A DNA stretch of 64,000 nucleotides from the NCBI RefSeq assembly GCF_020141465.1, contig NZ_JAHSPD010000001.1, positions 1,718,374 to 1,782,373 of the forward strand, in the 5' to 3' direction. The translations under genes and the position numbers were made by a program. A model generated the notes under the pieces. The model searched no databases, was not told the origin of the DNA, and saw only the letters and a program-made list of their open reading frames with translations. How positions within the stretch are numbered: position 1 is the first letter of the stretch; each line of letters begins with the position of its first letter. This document shows positions 14,481 through 62,878 of the stretch, one piece after another. This stretch comes from Roseovarius carneus. GTDB taxonomy: Bacteria; Pseudomonadota; Alphaproteobacteria; Rhodobacterales; Rhodobacteraceae.

Positions 14481-16676
14481 TCAGGCCGCTTCTGAGGCAT
14501 TGCCAAAACGGGCGTAGAAGCTTTGAGCCTTGCCCGCCATTTCGATTAGCAGTGCGGGTGGGGCAAAGCGCGCGCCATGCGCCTCAGAGAGTTCATTGCA
14601 GCGGGCGGCTGCATAGGGCGTGCCGATCATGTCGAGCCACGCAAACGGCCCGCCCGACCATGGCGCGAAGCCCCAGCCGAGGATCGCGCCCACATCACCT
14701 TCGCGGATATCCTCCAACACACCTTCTTCCAACGCGCGCACGGCCTCCAGAACTTGGGCGAACATCAGGCGGTGTTTTACCAGGGTCAGGTCCGGTTGCG
14801 CCCCATGCACGGGGTATTTCGCGCCAAGGCCGGGCCAGTATCCCAGCCGCTTGCCCTTGTCGTCATAGTCGTAAAACCCCGCGCCGGATTTGCGGCCCAA
14901 GCGGCCCTCGCCCTCCATCCAGAAGATCACCTCATCGACCGCCGCGTCCGGATAGGCGTCGCCCATCGCGGTCTTGGTGGCGCGGGCGATTTTCGCGCCC
15001 AGATCAATGGAGGTCTCATCGACCAGTTGCAGCGGCCCGACGGGGAACCCAAGCTGGCGCGCGGCATTGTCGATGAGCGCAGGTGTCACCCCTTCGGCCA
15101 CCATGCGCAGGCCCTCGTTGATGTAGGGGATGATGCAGCGATTGGCATAAAAGAACCGCGCATCATTCACCACGATGGGCGTCTTGCGGATTTGGCGCAC
15201 ATAATCCAGCGCCTTGGCCGTGGCCCGCGGGCCGGTCTGGCTGCCCTTGATGATCTCGACCAGCATCATTTTCTCGACCGGGCTGAAGAAATGGAGGCCG
15301 ATGAAGTTCTCCGGCCGCACGCTTGCCTTGGCCAGATCACTGATCGGCAGGGTGGAGGTGTTGGTGGCGAAGATACACTCCTCGCCCACCACGGCCTCGA
15401 CCGCCTTCGTCACCTCAGCCTTGATTTCCGGGTCCTCGAACACCGCTTCAATGATCAGATCGCAGCCCTTGAGAGCTGCGTAATCCGTGGTGGCAGTGAT
15501 CATGGCGAGGGCCGCGTCCTTCTTGGCCTCAGTCGCTTTGCCGCGTTTGATGCCTTGGTCCATGTAACTTGCGGTATAGGCTTTGCCCTTGTCCGCCGCG
15601 TCTTGCTTTTGGTCGATAAGGACAACTTCCATCCCGGCCATGGCCGACACAAGCGTGATGCCTGCGCCCATCATGCCCGCGCCCATGACACCGATCTTTT
15701 TGACAGTCGCATCGGGCACATCGGGGCGGTTAGCACCTTTCTCCAGCGCTTCTTTGTTGATGAAGAGGCTGCGGATCATGGCGCTTGAGGAGGGATCGAG
15801 CAGAATATGCGTGAACCAGCGCGCCTCGATCTTGAGTGCTGTGTCGAATGGCACGAGCGCGCCTTCATAGACGGCGCTCAGCAGGGCCTTGGCGGCGGGA
15901 AACGCGCCTTGGGTCTTGCCATTTACCATGGCTGAGGCACCAACGAAGGTCATGAACCCCGCCGGATGGTACGGCGCGCCACCGGGCATTTTGTAGCCCT
16001 TCTCGTCCCACGGCTTAACGATATTGGGCTCCGACAGCACCCATGCGCGGGCGGCGTCCATCAACTCATCGGCGGGCACCACCTCATCCACCACTCCGGC
16101 GGATTTGGCCTTTTTGGGATCGTTGAGTTTGCCTTCCAAAAGAAGCGGTGAGGCGCCCATCGCGCCCAGCTTGCGCACAAGCCGCGTGGTGCCGCCCGCG
16201 CCGGGAAAGATGCCGACCATGATCTCGGGCAGGCCAATCTTGGCCTTTGGGTTGTCGGCGGCAAAGATGCGGTGGCACGCGAGCGGAATTTCCAAGCCAA
16301 TGCCAAGCGCTGTGCCGGGCAGGGCGGCGGCGATCGGCTTGCCGCCTTTGTTCTTGTCGTCCATGCCGCCGCGCTCGATCTTGCGCAGGATGGCGTGCAT
16401 GCCCATTACGCCGTCGAAAAGGCCGCGTGCCGGGTCGTCGCCCGCATCCTCTTTCATCTTGGCGATGATGTTGAGATCCATGCCGCCTGCAAAGCTGCCC
16501 GGCTTGCCTGAGGTCAGAACGATGCCTTTCACGGCATCATCGGCCAATGCGTCATCAATCAGCGCCTCAAGGTCCAGAAACCCTTGGCCGTTCATCACAT
16601 TCATGGATTTGCCAACCGTGTCCCAAGTGATGATCGCAACGCCATCGGCGTATTTTTCCAGTGTAAAGTCAGTCAT
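14481..16676 (-). CDS. fadJ: Multifunctional beta-oxidation enzyme: enoyl-CoA hydratase / 3-hydroxyacyl-CoA dehydrogenase
   Basis: Carries out the hydration and NAD-dependent oxidation steps of beta-oxidation. Residues about 1-290 are the crotonase part, with the catalytic acids in GLEIPLACHR and IGLPEIMVGIFPGAGG; about 310-490 hold the Rossmann domain (IGVMGAGMMGAGI) and the catalytic His in GLHFFSPVEKM; the rest is the dimerisation region. At 731 aa it is the FadB/FadJ alpha-subunit length. The start overlaps the stop of the upstream orphan gene in an ATGA, with GAGGTGCAGGA as ribosome-binding site inside that gene. It is the last gene of the fad operon. FadB and FadJ cannot be told apart with certainty. 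Confidence 0.93.
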   Translation of the reverse strand: MTDFTLEKYADGVAIITWDTVGKSMNVMNGQGFLDLEALIDDALADDAVKGIVLTSGKPGSFAGGMDLNIIAKMKEDAGDDPARGLFDGVMGMHAILRKIERGGMDDKNKGGKPIAAALPGTALGIGLEIPLACHRIFAADNPKAKIGLPEIMVGIFPGAGGTTRLVRKLGAMGASPLLLEGKLNDPKKAKSAGVVDEVVPADELMDAARAWVLSEPNIVKPWDEKGYKMPGGAPYHPAGFMTFVGASAMVNGKTQGAFPAAKALLSAVYEGALVPFDTALKIEARWFTHILLDPSSSAMIRSLFINKEALEKGANRPDVPDATVKKIGVMGAGMMGAGITLVSAMAGMEVVLIDQKQDAADKGKAYTASYMDQGIKRGKATEAKKDAALAMITATTDYAALKGCDLIIEAVFEDPEIKAEVTKAVEAVVGEECIFATNTSTLPISDLAKASVRPENFIGLHFFSPVEKMMLVEIIKGSQTGPRATAKALDYVRQIRKTPIVVNDARFFYANRCIIPYINEGLRMVAEGVTPALIDNAARQLGFPVGPLQLVDETSIDLGAKIARATKTAMGDAYPDAAVDEVIFWMEGEGRLGRKSGAGFYDYDDKGKRLGYWPGLGAKYPVHGAQPDLTLVKHRLMFAQVLEAVRALEEGVLEDIREGDVGAILGWGFAPWSGGPFAWLDMIGTPYAAARCNELSEAHGARFAPPALLIEMAGKAQSFYARFGNASEAA

Positions 16677-17053
16677 TCCTGCACCTCAATCCCAACTTCT
16701 TGCAAGAATTTAAAAAGTTCTGGCGTCATTCTGTCTGCTTTCTGTGTGGATTTGAGAAGGCTTCTAAGGTCGATCAATTCGAAGTTTGACCAAACGTGAT
16801 CCAGCTTCCCTGGCCCTTTAAATTGGTCAGCTGTTTTCCAAAGGGCCCGCATGCATGAACGCATTTCTGCAACCGTACAGTTGTTGCTTATCCAGACACC
16901 AGTGCCATGCGCACCGGGATCATTGATAAAACCGTTAGGTTCAAAAGCATTTTTTTTAAGAAGCCCCCGCAATGCACTGTATGTGTCGCCGTTCAGTGAA
17001 ATGCGTATTGATGCCCTATAAATGTTGACGCTGTGTTTTGGTTTTTTCGTCAT
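16673..17053 (-). CDS. Unknown 126-aa protein inserted in the beta-oxidation operon
   Basis: Not recognised. A basic, mixed alpha/beta-looking 126-aa protein without signal peptide or membrane segment. It starts four bases after the thiolase stop and its TGA overlaps the fadJ ATG, so it is translationally coupled to both. Base composition is clearly different: 16741-16800 has 25 G+C of 60 and 16921-16980 has 23 of 60, while fadJ line 14641-14700 has 43 of 60. The ribosome-binding site of fadJ lies in its last codons. It is probably a foreign gene added without breaking the operon; a role in fatty acid oxidation is not shown. Confidence 0.72.
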   Translation of the reverse strand: MTKKPKHSVNIYRASIRISLNGDTYSALRGLLKKNAFEPNGFINDPGAHGTGVWISNNCTVAEMRSCMRALWKTADQFKGPGKLDHVWSNFELIDLRSLLKSTQKADRMTPELFKFLQEVGIEVQE

Positions 17054-17057
17054 AATG

Positions 17058-48295: not shown

Positions 48296-48438
48296 GGTGA
48301 TATGCAGGGGCAGGTTTGAAGGGCTGTTTTGCTGGGTGAATGGGTGGTTTGAGCCTTACCAAGACCTTCGATTTTCAAATAATATCGATGTCCATGGCCC
48401 AATGTGGACCATGGAGGCGTTCATCTGAAGCGACCGAT

Positions 48439-48849
48439 TTACGGGATGTGGCTCCAAATTTTCTGCGCAACCCTTGCGTTATCCGCAAGCTGCTGGGCTG
48501 GAATTTTGGACGATTGCGTCTGAATGCGATGAACAGTCAAACTAGGATTGGCAGCGATGTAGGCATTAATAGTGTCCACCGTGATGCCGCGCGACTTTGT
48601 TGCGCAGACCATGAGATCGCAGTTGTGTGTCTTAAAGCACTGAATGGCGTCTAATATCATAGCCCCTGTATCTCCAGCACTGCGAACACCAATCGTATAT
48701 TGATTAGAATTCTTGGTCAGCGGGCCAGCATACTTGATGTCACCACGTCTCGGGACCGAAAAGTTTGGTAAATTGGCCCGTGCAAAATCCTTAATTGACG
48801 TGGACTTACCGCTGTTCCCGACGCCCTCTACTACAATTAAAATCGCCAT
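48439..48849 (-). CDS. Orphan P-loop protein of unknown function
   Basis: A 136-aa protein with a Walker A motif right at the N-terminus, VEGVGNSGKSTS (P-loop GVGNSGKST, residues 9-17), then a region ending in CDLMVCATKSRG near residue 80 that could hold a Walker B-like strand (D-L-M-V-C). No other domain is seen. A strong TAGGAG site precedes ATG 48849. Composition is lower in GC than the neighbours: 48601-48660 and 48661-48720 each have 27 G+C of 60. It stands alone between the permease and clpP, and its function is not known to me. Confidence 0.65.
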   Translation of the reverse strand: MAILIVVEGVGNSGKSTSIKDFARANLPNFSVPRRGDIKYAGPLTKNSNQYTIGVRSAGDTGAMILDAIQCFKTHNCDLMVCATKSRGITVDTINAYIAANPSLTVHRIQTQSSKIPAQQLADNARVAQKIWSHIP

Positions 48850-49313
48850 TTTACTCTCCTATTTATAACGACAAACTAACGGCTGGAAGCACGGTTTGCT
48901 AGTGTTTTCAGCATTACCGCATTCGGTAGCCGATAATTCGACGAGCAAGCGTTTGGGCAGTGATAGGCGCTAAATAGCTGCGGGTATTCTAGGCATTATG
49001 GGTGTTCATTTCCTGCTATCGCTCGAGAATCCACACGTGACGGCACCCCGTTACTCACATGGCAGCGAAAATCCACTTTCCGCCAAATTTGCGATGTTGG
49101 CTGCAAATCGCGCCATAGTCGGTTTGTCCGCTTAGCCGCCATTGGCCGTTAAACCTGCACTATCATCATCGATATGATGAGATTTGAAAGATGGCGCGAG
49201 GTCGGGAGTGGGACAAAATACCCACCCGCCCTTGCAGGCCCTAGGGCGCAATACTAAGACTCCCTTAGGACCTGATCCGATAAGGATCGCACATAACCAG
49301 CAGGCAGGTGCAT
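48850..49313. other. AT-richer intergenic region upstream of clpP
   Basis: 464 bases without a gene I can support. It contains the P-loop gene promoter on the left, the dyad TCATCAT-CGAT-ATGATGA at 49163-49180, and GATCC-GATAA-GGATC at 49274-49288 near clpP. CTTGCA followed about 14 bases later by an AT-rich element at about 49228-49256 might be a heat-shock-type clpP promoter. No tRNA, insertion sequence or gene remnant was recognised. Confidence 0.45.
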
Positions 49314-59787: not shown

Positions 59788-60630
59788 TCAAATGCCGAAG
59801 GGAACACCGCCTGTTACAGGGAGATTCATACCAGTGACGTAATTTGCTTGCGGCCCAGCAAGATAAGCCACTGCGTTGGCAACATCTTCCGGTAGTCCCG
59901 CATCTCTCAACGCCACATTCGCATATCGCTCTTTTTTTATCTTGGCGATTGATATTCTCCGCTCATTTGCCAATCGCTTGTTTGCAGCGGTATGCATGTC
60001 CGTAGCAATGTAGCCGGGGCAGACGGTGTTGCACAAAATACCGTCGGGGCCAAACTCTGCGGCAAGTGTTTTGGAAAATCCGACCAACCCATGCTTCATG
60101 GTCGTGTATGCTCCAAAGCCCGGCTCGGCTCCAAGGCTGCCCGTCGATCCAATATTGATAATCCGCCCACCACCAATCTCACGCATCTGCGGTATCACCG
60201 CTTGCGAGAGCATCATGGGCCCCAAAAGGTTCACATTAAAGCTCGTGCTCCACTGTTCAGGTGTTGTTGACAAAAAGTTGTCCGAACCGGCCAGCGAGCC
60301 CGCATTATTGACGAGAATATCTATCCGCCCAAATTGCGAGAGCGTTTGCTCTATCCCTGTCTCAATGTCTCTGGCGTTCGTCACATCCAAAATCAAAGAT
60401 TTCGCCGTTCCGTTAGCGCCTTCAATCTCGGCAACGATGCTGTCTAACAGTTCGGCACGCGGCATTAAGTTACCGTCAACATCCATATGACCGTCAATGT
60501 CCGTGACAACGACGGCTGCACCGTCTTGCGCAAGCCGTCGAGCAATTGCGCGCCCAATACCATGTGGTGCCGATGCCCCAGTGACTAACGCGACTTTACC
60601 TTCAAGTGGATACATAGCCGTGTCTCTCAT
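59788..60630 (-). CDS. SDR family oxidoreductase, low-GC, probably acquired
   Basis: A classical SDR of 275-280 aa. The cofactor motif is TGASAPHGIGRA, with an insertion compared with the usual TGxxxGIG; DILVNNAGS follows, then the active site Ser, Tyr and Lys in GSTGSLGAEPGFGAYTTMKHG (in parts). Start is ATG 60630 or 60615, with no strong ribosome-binding site. GC content is low: 59881-59940 has 27 of 60 and 60301-60360 has 28 of 60. It stands between the DMT gene and acs with an AT-rich upstream region, so recent transfer is likely. Substrate unknown. Confidence 0.82.
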   Translation of the reverse strand: MRDTAMYPLEGKVALVTGASAPHGIGRAIARRLAQDGAAVVVTDIDGHMDVDGNLMPRAELLDSIVAEIEGANGTAKSLILDVTNARDIETGIEQTLSQFGRIDILVNNAGSLAGSDNFLSTTPEQWSTSFNVNLLGPMMLSQAVIPQMREIGGGRIINIGSTGSLGAEPGFGAYTTMKHGLVGFSKTLAAEFGPDGILCNTVCPGYIATDMHTAANKRLANERRISIAKIKKERYANVALRDAGLPEDVANAVAYLAGPQANYVTGMNLPVTGGVPFGI

Positions 60631-60931
60631 AAGGAAATCTATTCAAGCAAGAGCTACATGAATTCCCAAAGGTATCAAGGTGGCTAGGGTCTCATTACGA
60701 AATAGTAAAATGCCGCAAGCTAAAATTTTATAGCCGCGCAACAAGAGTTTTTTGGACATCTGTCTTCAGCGACTTTCTCCACCACCAAAAACTCCTTACA
60801 AAGACCCAGCGATTGTCGAAGGGTTTCGCCTCTCTTCAGGTAGTGAGCGTCCATGCCTTACCGTGCATCCGTCAAAAAGGCCCCGCACTACAGGGCCTTT
60901 TCGCAATCACCTTAGACTCGAAAGCCTCCTA
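60631..60931. other. AT-rich intergenic region between acs and the SDR gene
   Basis: 301 bases with no gene I can support. It has the likely promoter of the SDR gene and, near acs, the terminator at 60874-60901. Composition is as AT-rich as the SDR gene, consistent with one acquired block. No insertion sequence ends or direct repeats were found by eye. Confidence 0.45.
60874..60901 (-). terminator. Rho-independent terminator of acs
   Basis: AAAAGGCCC at 60875-60883 pairs with GGGCCTTTT at 60893-60901. In the minus-strand direction the stem is followed by a run of five T, 31 bases past the acs stop. Confidence 0.8.
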
Positions 60932-62878
60932 TCAACCCCGGTTCATCCGGTTCTCAATGAGATCCTCCACAACTGCAGGCTCGGCCAGCGTTGAGATATC
61001 GCCCAATGCGCCGAAGTCATCCTCGGCGATTTTGCGCAGGATGCGGCGCATGATTTTGCCGGAGCGTGTTTTCGGCAGGCCCGGCGCCCATTGGATGAGG
61101 TCGGGCTTGGCGATGGGGCCGATCTCGGTGCGGACCCATTTCTCAAGCTCTTTGCGCAGCTCGTCTGTGGCCTCCACCCCGTTCATCAAGGTGACATAGG
61201 CGTAGATGCCTTGGCCCTTTATATCGTGCGGATAGCCGACCACGGCGGCCTCGGCTACGTTTGCGTGGGCCACCAGGGCGGATTCCACCTCCGCCGTGCC
61301 CATGCGGTGGCCGGAGACGTTGATCACGTCATCGACGCGGCCCGTGATCCAGTAATAGCCATCCGCATCGCGGCGGCAGCCATCACCGGTGAAGTAATAG
61401 CCTTTGTAATCCGAGAAATATGTCTTTTCGAAGCGCTCATGGTCGCCGTAGACGGTGCGCATCTGGCCGGGCCAGCTGCCCTTCATGCACAGAACGCCTT
61501 CGGCCACGGTCTCGTGGATTTCTTCGCCCGAGGTAGGGTCAAGGATCACAGGCTCCACCCCGAAGAAGGGCCGTGTGCAGGAGCCAGGCTTGGTCGCTGT
61601 GGCGCCGGGCAGGGGGGTCATCAGGTGCCCGCCTGTTTCGGTTTGCCACCACGTGTCGACGATGGGGCATTTGCCCTTGCCCACGACGTCGTTGTACCAG
61701 CTCCACGCCTCGGGGTTGATCGGCTCGCCCACGGTGCCCAGCAGTTTGAGCGCGCTGAGATCACAGCTCTCGACGAAGCTGTTGCCCTGACCCATCAGCG
61801 CGCGCAGGGCGGTGGGGGCGGTGTAGAACTGATTGACGCTGTGCTTTTCGCAGACTTGCCAGAAGCGCGAGGCATCGGGATAGGTCGGCACGCCCTCGAA
61901 CATGACCGTGGTCGCGCCATTGGCCAAGGGTCCGTAGACAATATAGCTGTGGCCGGTGACCCAGCCGACATCGGCGGTGCACCAGTAGACATCGCCCTCG
62001 TGGTAGTCGAACACCAGCTCATGGGTCATTGACGCATAGACAAGATAGCCGCCGGAGGTGTGGACGACGCCTTTGGGTTGGCCCGTGCTGCCGGAAGTAT
62101 AGAGGATGAAGAGCGGGTCTTCGGCGTTCATCTCCTCGGGGGGGCATTCGGGGCTGGCCGCCGCCATAAGGGCGGTGCAATCGTGATCATGCTCGGTCCA
62201 TGTGATCTGACCGCCTGTGCGTTTGACGACTAGGCATTGCACCCGGTCGTCGGTATGCAAAAGCGCCTGATCGGTATTGGATTTGAGCGCCGTCTTGCGC
62301 CCGCCGCGTGGGGCCTCATCGGCGGTGATCACCACCTTGGCGCCGCACCCGTTGATCCGCGCGCCCAGAGCATCGGGCGAGAAGCCTGCAAAGACGATGG
62401 AGTGGATCGCGCCGATCCGCGCGCAGGCGAGCATGGCATAGGCCGCTTCAGGGATCATGGGCAGGTAGAGGACAACGCGGTCACCCTTGCCCACGCCCAG
62501 ATCCTTGAGGACATTGGCCATGCGACAGGTCTGATCGTGCAATTCCTGATAGGTGATGTGCTGGGCGGGCGTTTCTGGATCGTCTGCCTCCCAGATGATC
62601 GCGGTCTGACCCGCGCGCGTGGCAAGGTGGCGGTCGATGCAATTGGCCGAGACATTCAGCGTGCCATCCGCAAACCAGTTGATGCCGACAGTGCCCAAAT
62701 CAAACGATACATCGCGGACCTTGGTGAAGGGCGTCATCCAGTCGATGCGCTTGCCATGCTCGGCCCAGAACGTATCGGGGTCTTTGATGGAGGCTGCATA
62801 CATTGCGTCATATCTGGCGGCGTCGATATGGGCCTTGGCGGCGAAATCGGCGGATGGCGGATAGGTTGTATCGGACAT
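60932..62878 (-). CDS. acs: Acetyl-CoA synthetase
   Basis: AMP-forming ligase that activates acetate to acetyl-CoA. The 648-aa protein has the ACAS N region ([20 protein letters not shown]), the phosphate loop [18 protein letters not shown] near residue 260, [19 protein letters not shown] near 415, [19 protein letters not shown] near 500 and the acetylatable Lys in [14 protein letters not shown] near 605. AAGGTCCG precedes ATG 62878. It differs from PrpE in the active-site tunnel segment (VVGWVTGH-type). It is downstream of the liv ABC genes on the same strand, separated by 132 bases. Confidence 0.95.

Follow-up and report, generated by a model that had tools for sequence, protein, structure and literature searches.

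The operon that holds thiolase and fadJ in the window (the 64,000-nucleotide stretch of DNA analysed) contains, exactly between these two genes, a small AT-rich gene termed P0001. We consider it probable, with odds of roughly two in three, that P0001 came recently from a foreign source and rides along as a passenger, with borders that would let thiolase, P0001 and FadJ be produced from one message by termination and reinitiation of translation. The relevant features of the window are:

16673..17053, minus strand: P0001 gene (126 aa; stop codon included), recognised by frame translation, composition and its probable homologue P0002
17058..18269, minus strand: thiolase gene (403 aa), the upstream neighbour of P0001, with Pfam Thiolase_N and Thiolase_C
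14481..16676, minus strand: fadJ, downstream of P0001, encoding a FadJ-type enoyl-CoA hydratase / 3-hydroxyacyl-CoA dehydrogenase (731 aa; Pfam ECH_1, 3HCDH_N and 3HCDH)
16673..16676, minus strand: ATGA overlap of the P0001 stop and the fadJ start
16682..16687, minus strand: GAGGTG within the last P0001 codons, the likely fadJ ribosome-binding site
17054..17057, minus strand: four-base spacer CATT between the thiolase stop (TGA) and the P0001 ATG

The sequence-only reading had described a 126-aa gene starting four bases past the thiolase stop, sharing ATGA with the fadJ start and carrying the fadJ ribosome-binding site in its last codons. The minus-strand frame and the CATT spacer agree with the first statement, the overlap is present in the sequence, and the GAGGTG hexamer has a calculated anti-Shine-Dalgarno (anti-SD) pairing energy of -6.9 kcal/mol. 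Thiolase and fadJ are both full length and lie on the same strand as P0001. The P0001 frame has no internal stop over its 126 residues, and only 2 of 5000 composition-preserving shuffles were stop-free in frame over 375 nt, so the open frame is not a product of chance. A run of eight A residues on the coding strand (window positions 16951-16958) is a possible slippage site. Neither a repeat search nor the window's list of open reading frames revealed direct or inverted repeats or a recombinase marking the insertion, and no tRNA, integrase, internal promoter or Rfam RNA was found at P0001 or its borders; one weak terminator-like site lies on the opposite strand. The absence of border repeats and of a recombinase counts against recent gain, although unmarked borders are what is expected if the surviving insertions are the precise events that spared both neighbours.

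The composition of P0001 sets it apart from its surroundings. Its G+C content is 44.6%, as compared to 61.4% for the window, and is the lowest among all sampled 381-base stretches. Third codon positions are 0.46 G+C in P0001 and 0.67-0.80 in ten other genes of the window, and a codon-adaptation-like value is 0.43 as compared to 0.54-0.74 in the same ten genes. Counted per 60-base line, P0001 contains 25 (line 16681), 25 (16741), 32, 32, 23 (16921) and 26 (16981) G+C, whereas fadJ lines mostly contain 31-45; the earlier remark on stretches with 25 and 23 G+C therefore stands, with the value of 25 occurring in two lines. Two more stretches of the window fall below 50% G+C (48301-49181 and 60301-60981) and may hold further foreign genes.

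To establish how P0001 is distributed, we searched genome sets of the genus, family, class and phylum, which overlap, taking the genus as Roseovarius in the broad GTDB sense (84 genomes, the window's own genome being G000; its species is represented by this one genome). P0001 is present in a single copy in G000. It was not found in the other 83 genus genomes, where the remaining matches have E values of 0.0036 or worse, nor in the other 393 family genomes, where two matches at E 0.005-0.009 look like chance. A search for a donor lineage recovered one distant homologue among 385 class genomes and none among the other 397 phylum genomes. Weak matches in G306, G371, G001, G020, G035, G115 and other genomes (E 0.004 to 0.9 per genome) were rejected as chance: 11 of the weak-match genomes, together with G529, share no motif on inspection and several of the matches contain stops. 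The best such chance matches reach 34 bits. Homologues of native composition in the same place, which would have spoken against the sequence-only reading, were also looked for and not found. In a fadJ protein tree (82 rows, built by a quick method), G000 groups with its nearest relative, G017, at full SH-aLRT support; the FadJ and thiolase of G017 are 95% and 98% identical to those of G000, and where G000 has P0001 this relative holds a 175-aa gene of 63% G+C. The difference between the two genomes is confined to the span from the thiolase stop to the fadJ start. The lowest G+C, together with the failure to find P0001 in this sister genome or in any other genome of the genus, supports the earlier proposal that P0001 is a gained, foreign gene. 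Taken by itself, the tree of FadJ sequences fits either direction, gain in G000 or loss everywhere else.

The one distant homologue, P0002, is encoded in genome G811, which belongs to another alphaproteobacterial family:

L164:1435-1725, minus strand: P0002 (96 aa), an intact frame

P0001 and P0002 are 35% identical across 79 aligned positions and have in common the motif W-[KR]-T-A-D-x3-G-P-G-[KR]-L-D-H-x-W. The match has an E value of 3.8e-6 for one genome, or about 1.5e-3 over the 385 class genomes searched, and the pair scores 41.2 bits as compared to 22.7 for the best of 5000 P0001 shuffles. We regard the two proteins as very probably homologous, stopping short of certainty because many genomes were searched and chance matches reach 34 bits. 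Both genes are AT-rich against their neighbours, P0002 having 50.9% G+C and the adjacent hutG 62.6% (so named for its resemblance to genes annotated as hutG). They differ in that P0002 is shorter and lies 97 bp past hutG, outside any beta-oxidation operon. P0002 was not found in the other 16 genomes of its family, and it has no matches in Pfam, PHROGs, NCBIfam, PADLOC, PDB, phages or plasmids. Since P0002 is also low in G+C and absent from its family's other genomes, P0001 looks like a member of a small, sporadic, AT-rich family; its earlier description as an orphan is not supported as worded.

The existence of P0002 also bears on the idea that P0001 is a non-functional frame which arose in place, out of DNA that was non-coding or had decayed, such as the remains of an earlier slot occupant. 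Poor agreement with host codon use is consistent with such an origin, as is a single-sequence AlphaFold2 model with a mean pLDDT of only 44. However, an intact frame in a probable homologue far away, a frame that stays open so rarely in shuffles, a G+C content far below that of the host, and the lack of resemblance to any other slot occupant in DNA or protein all argue otherwise, and we consider this origin improbable. The AlphaFold2 model gives the low-confidence impression of a small alpha/beta protein. A Foldseek search with it against the PDB gave no hit with an E value of 0.001 or below, and a PDB profile search with a two-row alignment returned two designed proteins (E 0.0048 and 0.019) and two fiber proteins (E 0.76 and 0.77), all judged to be chance. 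P0001 matches no Pfam family at E up to 1 and nothing significant in NCBIfam, PADLOC, PHROGs or PDB, where the best PHROG and PDB hits have E values of 0.3 and 1.3.

An AT-rich, sporadic gene whose homologue also looks foreign in its own genome could be a phage or mobile-element fragment that still moves or did so recently. At the sensitivities used, no relative of P0001 was found in 50,697 phage records (two matches, E 0.4), 72,556 plasmid records or 2.9 million viral contigs, and a named genome collection had none either. With its single copy and with borders that lack repeats, tRNA and integrase, P0001 is very unlikely to be such a fragment. The absence of a donor among the phages, plasmids and viral contigs counts against the preferred reading, a recently gained passenger, as well.

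We compared the thiolase-fadJ junction in 120 loci (70 from the genus and 50 from outside it), all picked by a high-scoring fadJ and thus not a random sample of the family. Within the genus, 43 of the 70 junctions are tight (15-30 bp) and 27 are filled (322-1758 bp). The sequence-only reading had held that thiolase and fadJ are normally direct neighbours, which is correct for the tight loci but fails for the 27 filled ones and for 27 of the 50 named loci outside the genus (L103, L106-L154), where genes also occupy the junction. Cupin_2 alone fills 16 of the 27 genus junctions, a 95-aa family plus cupin two and NADAR two, while P0001, a 175-aa family, the 95-aa family alone, another cupin, cupin with the 175-aa family, DUF559 and a four-gene array account for one each. 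Cupin_2, NADAR (PF08719) and DUF559 (PF04480) are Pfam names; the 95-aa family (L004, L047, L050, L060) and the family of about 175 aa (L003, L051, L060), the latter with a signal-peptide-like start, are each conserved and have no Pfam match. The array belongs to EL129 (Rhodobacteraceae bacterium; L060, identical to L099), in which a gap of 1758 bp holds four co-directional genes, with overlaps of a few bases from one gene to the next, for a cupin, the 95-aa protein, a cupin and a secreted-looking protein of about 175 aa. On the fadJ tree, the tight or filled state changes at least 13 times and the class of content at least 17 times. Many of the occupants outside the genus are SnoaL-like by weak match (a weak Pfam match in one of three tested), and a 929-bp gap in L103 and L145 encodes a 307-aa protein that looks like two tandem-fused SnoaL-like domains.

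The other occupants resemble P0001 in their position between thiolase and fadJ and often in ending with an ATGA overlap, but they have no sequence similarity to it, and the gaps that they fill in the genus have 54-68% G+C. Two possible connections were tried and rejected. A cryptic relationship through frameshifts, sought with tblastn and blastn against the other filled genus gaps, gave chance matches only. The sequence 'NIYR' near the start of P0001 resembles 'AIYQ' of the SnoaL-like junction proteins and suggested a relationship to NTF2/SnoaL genes; a profile of 20 such proteins scored P0001 at 0.7 bits, and 25 of 1000 P0001 shuffles scored higher.

Insertion at this junction appears to leave translation of fadJ coupled to the gene before it. 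In the 27 filled loci, the last inserted gene overlaps the fadJ start by four bases in 12 and by eight bases in four, lies directly before it in one, three bases before it in six, and 12, 12, 34 and 80 bases before it in the others; it thus overlaps the start in 16 loci, and overlaps it or ends at most three bases before it in 23. The fadJ start reads ATGACTGA in 47 of the 70 genus loci, and every one of the 70 begins with (A or G)TGAC, so that a TGA is available in the next frame throughout. Calculated anti-SD pairing upstream of fadJ has a median of -7.0 kcal/mol in the filled loci and -8.2 in the tight ones, so that GAGGTG in P0001 is ordinary for a filled locus and weaker than the tight-locus median; the value upstream of P0001 itself is -6.0. 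The overlaps with fadJ, the TGA at its start and these pairing energies make it plausible that P0001 is translated by reinitiation between thiolase and fadJ. The earlier proposal that P0001 was gained without breaking coupling is supported, as coupling is kept at both of its borders.

These observations suggest the following course of events. A small gene of a rare, patchily distributed family would have arrived by horizontal transfer and lodged exactly in the gap that separates the thiolase stop from the fadJ start. It would survive in this slot because it is co-directional with the operon, begins right after the thiolase stop and carries within its final codons a Shine-Dalgarno-like GAGGTG of its own, where ribosomes terminating on P0001 could restart on fadJ at the ATGA overlap. 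P0001 is most likely a passenger or a niche-specific accessory gene, which would be co-made with the beta-oxidation enzymes and stand outside their chemistry.

P0001 lies within the operon, is coupled at its two ends and occupies a junction where small genes recur, which might instead mean that it has been drawn into beta-oxidation, perhaps as a small protein that regulates or partners the thiolase/FadJ pair, and was kept for that reason. P0001, however, occupies one of the 70 genus junctions and the enzymes are in all 70; the junction proteins come from unrelated families, which argues against one shared partner role; and its sole homologue adjoins hutG, not beta-oxidation genes. The sucC-sucD junction of the same genus, used as a control, shows the same kind of insertion: 30 loci were taken, and inserts longer than 300 bp are present in 11 of the 28 that were measurable (L170, L171, L176, L182, L183, L184, L185, L188, L189, L192 and L193). 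These inserts are varied, three are AT-rich (48-51% G+C), and none was matched with seven fadJ-slot proteins as queries. One junction upstream of thiolase-fadJ, between GST and thiolase, is quieter, with more than 200 bp in two of 30 measurable loci (31 loci, L075-L105). Gain of small genes inside operons is thus common in the genus. The frequency of the sucC-sucD inserts shows that the thiolase-fadJ slot is not a unique hotspot and supports a passenger; recruitment seems a poor explanation to us. Of the two fates that had been proposed for P0001, the hitchhiker is accordingly favoured, and evidence for recruitment into beta-oxidation was not found.

A broader idea, which we think rather unlikely as it stands, is that the junction is a reusable landing slot, in which a 'stop-and-restart adaptor' at fadJ lets unrelated genes be captured, swapped and stacked, P0001 being the newest. 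The fadJ start, ATGAC(T)GA, would supply stops in one or both of the other frames as well as an immediate restart, and therefore an incoming frame that runs into fadJ would tend to end in a coupled overlap of four or eight bases. Captures, up to four of them stacked in EL129, would spare fadJ, and the small family of P0001 would spread by such events. The wider turnover at the junction is worth following, as is the possibility that fadJ begins with a stop-and-restart site already in place, and the comparison of 70 junctions makes the rule testable: an insert ends in ATGA or just before the start. P0001 itself provides a clean case, as species 95% identical in FadJ have different genes in the same few-base slot, and it shows how operons gain genes while downstream translation is kept. 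The case further draws attention to a small protein family covered by none of the family libraries searched.

Our literature search showed nothing on the thiolase-fadJ junction among the matches listed, which included one proteomics paper (PMC4103551). The insertion of a foreign gene into an operon is an already known kind of event, and the thiolase-fadJ junction often takes genes. P0001 has the marks of such a gene, being absent from close relatives, unlike its host in composition and flanked by intact co-directional neighbours. In the 'life-cycle of operons' picture of Price, Arkin and Alm (2006), existing operons reportedly take up foreign or ORFan genes. Like the inserts of that picture, P0001 is an atypical, small, co-directional gene in a conserved operon, with intact neighbours and with near relatives that lack it. 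The present case differs in that unrelated genes turn over repeatedly at one junction within a genus, and in that the classes of overlap were measured.
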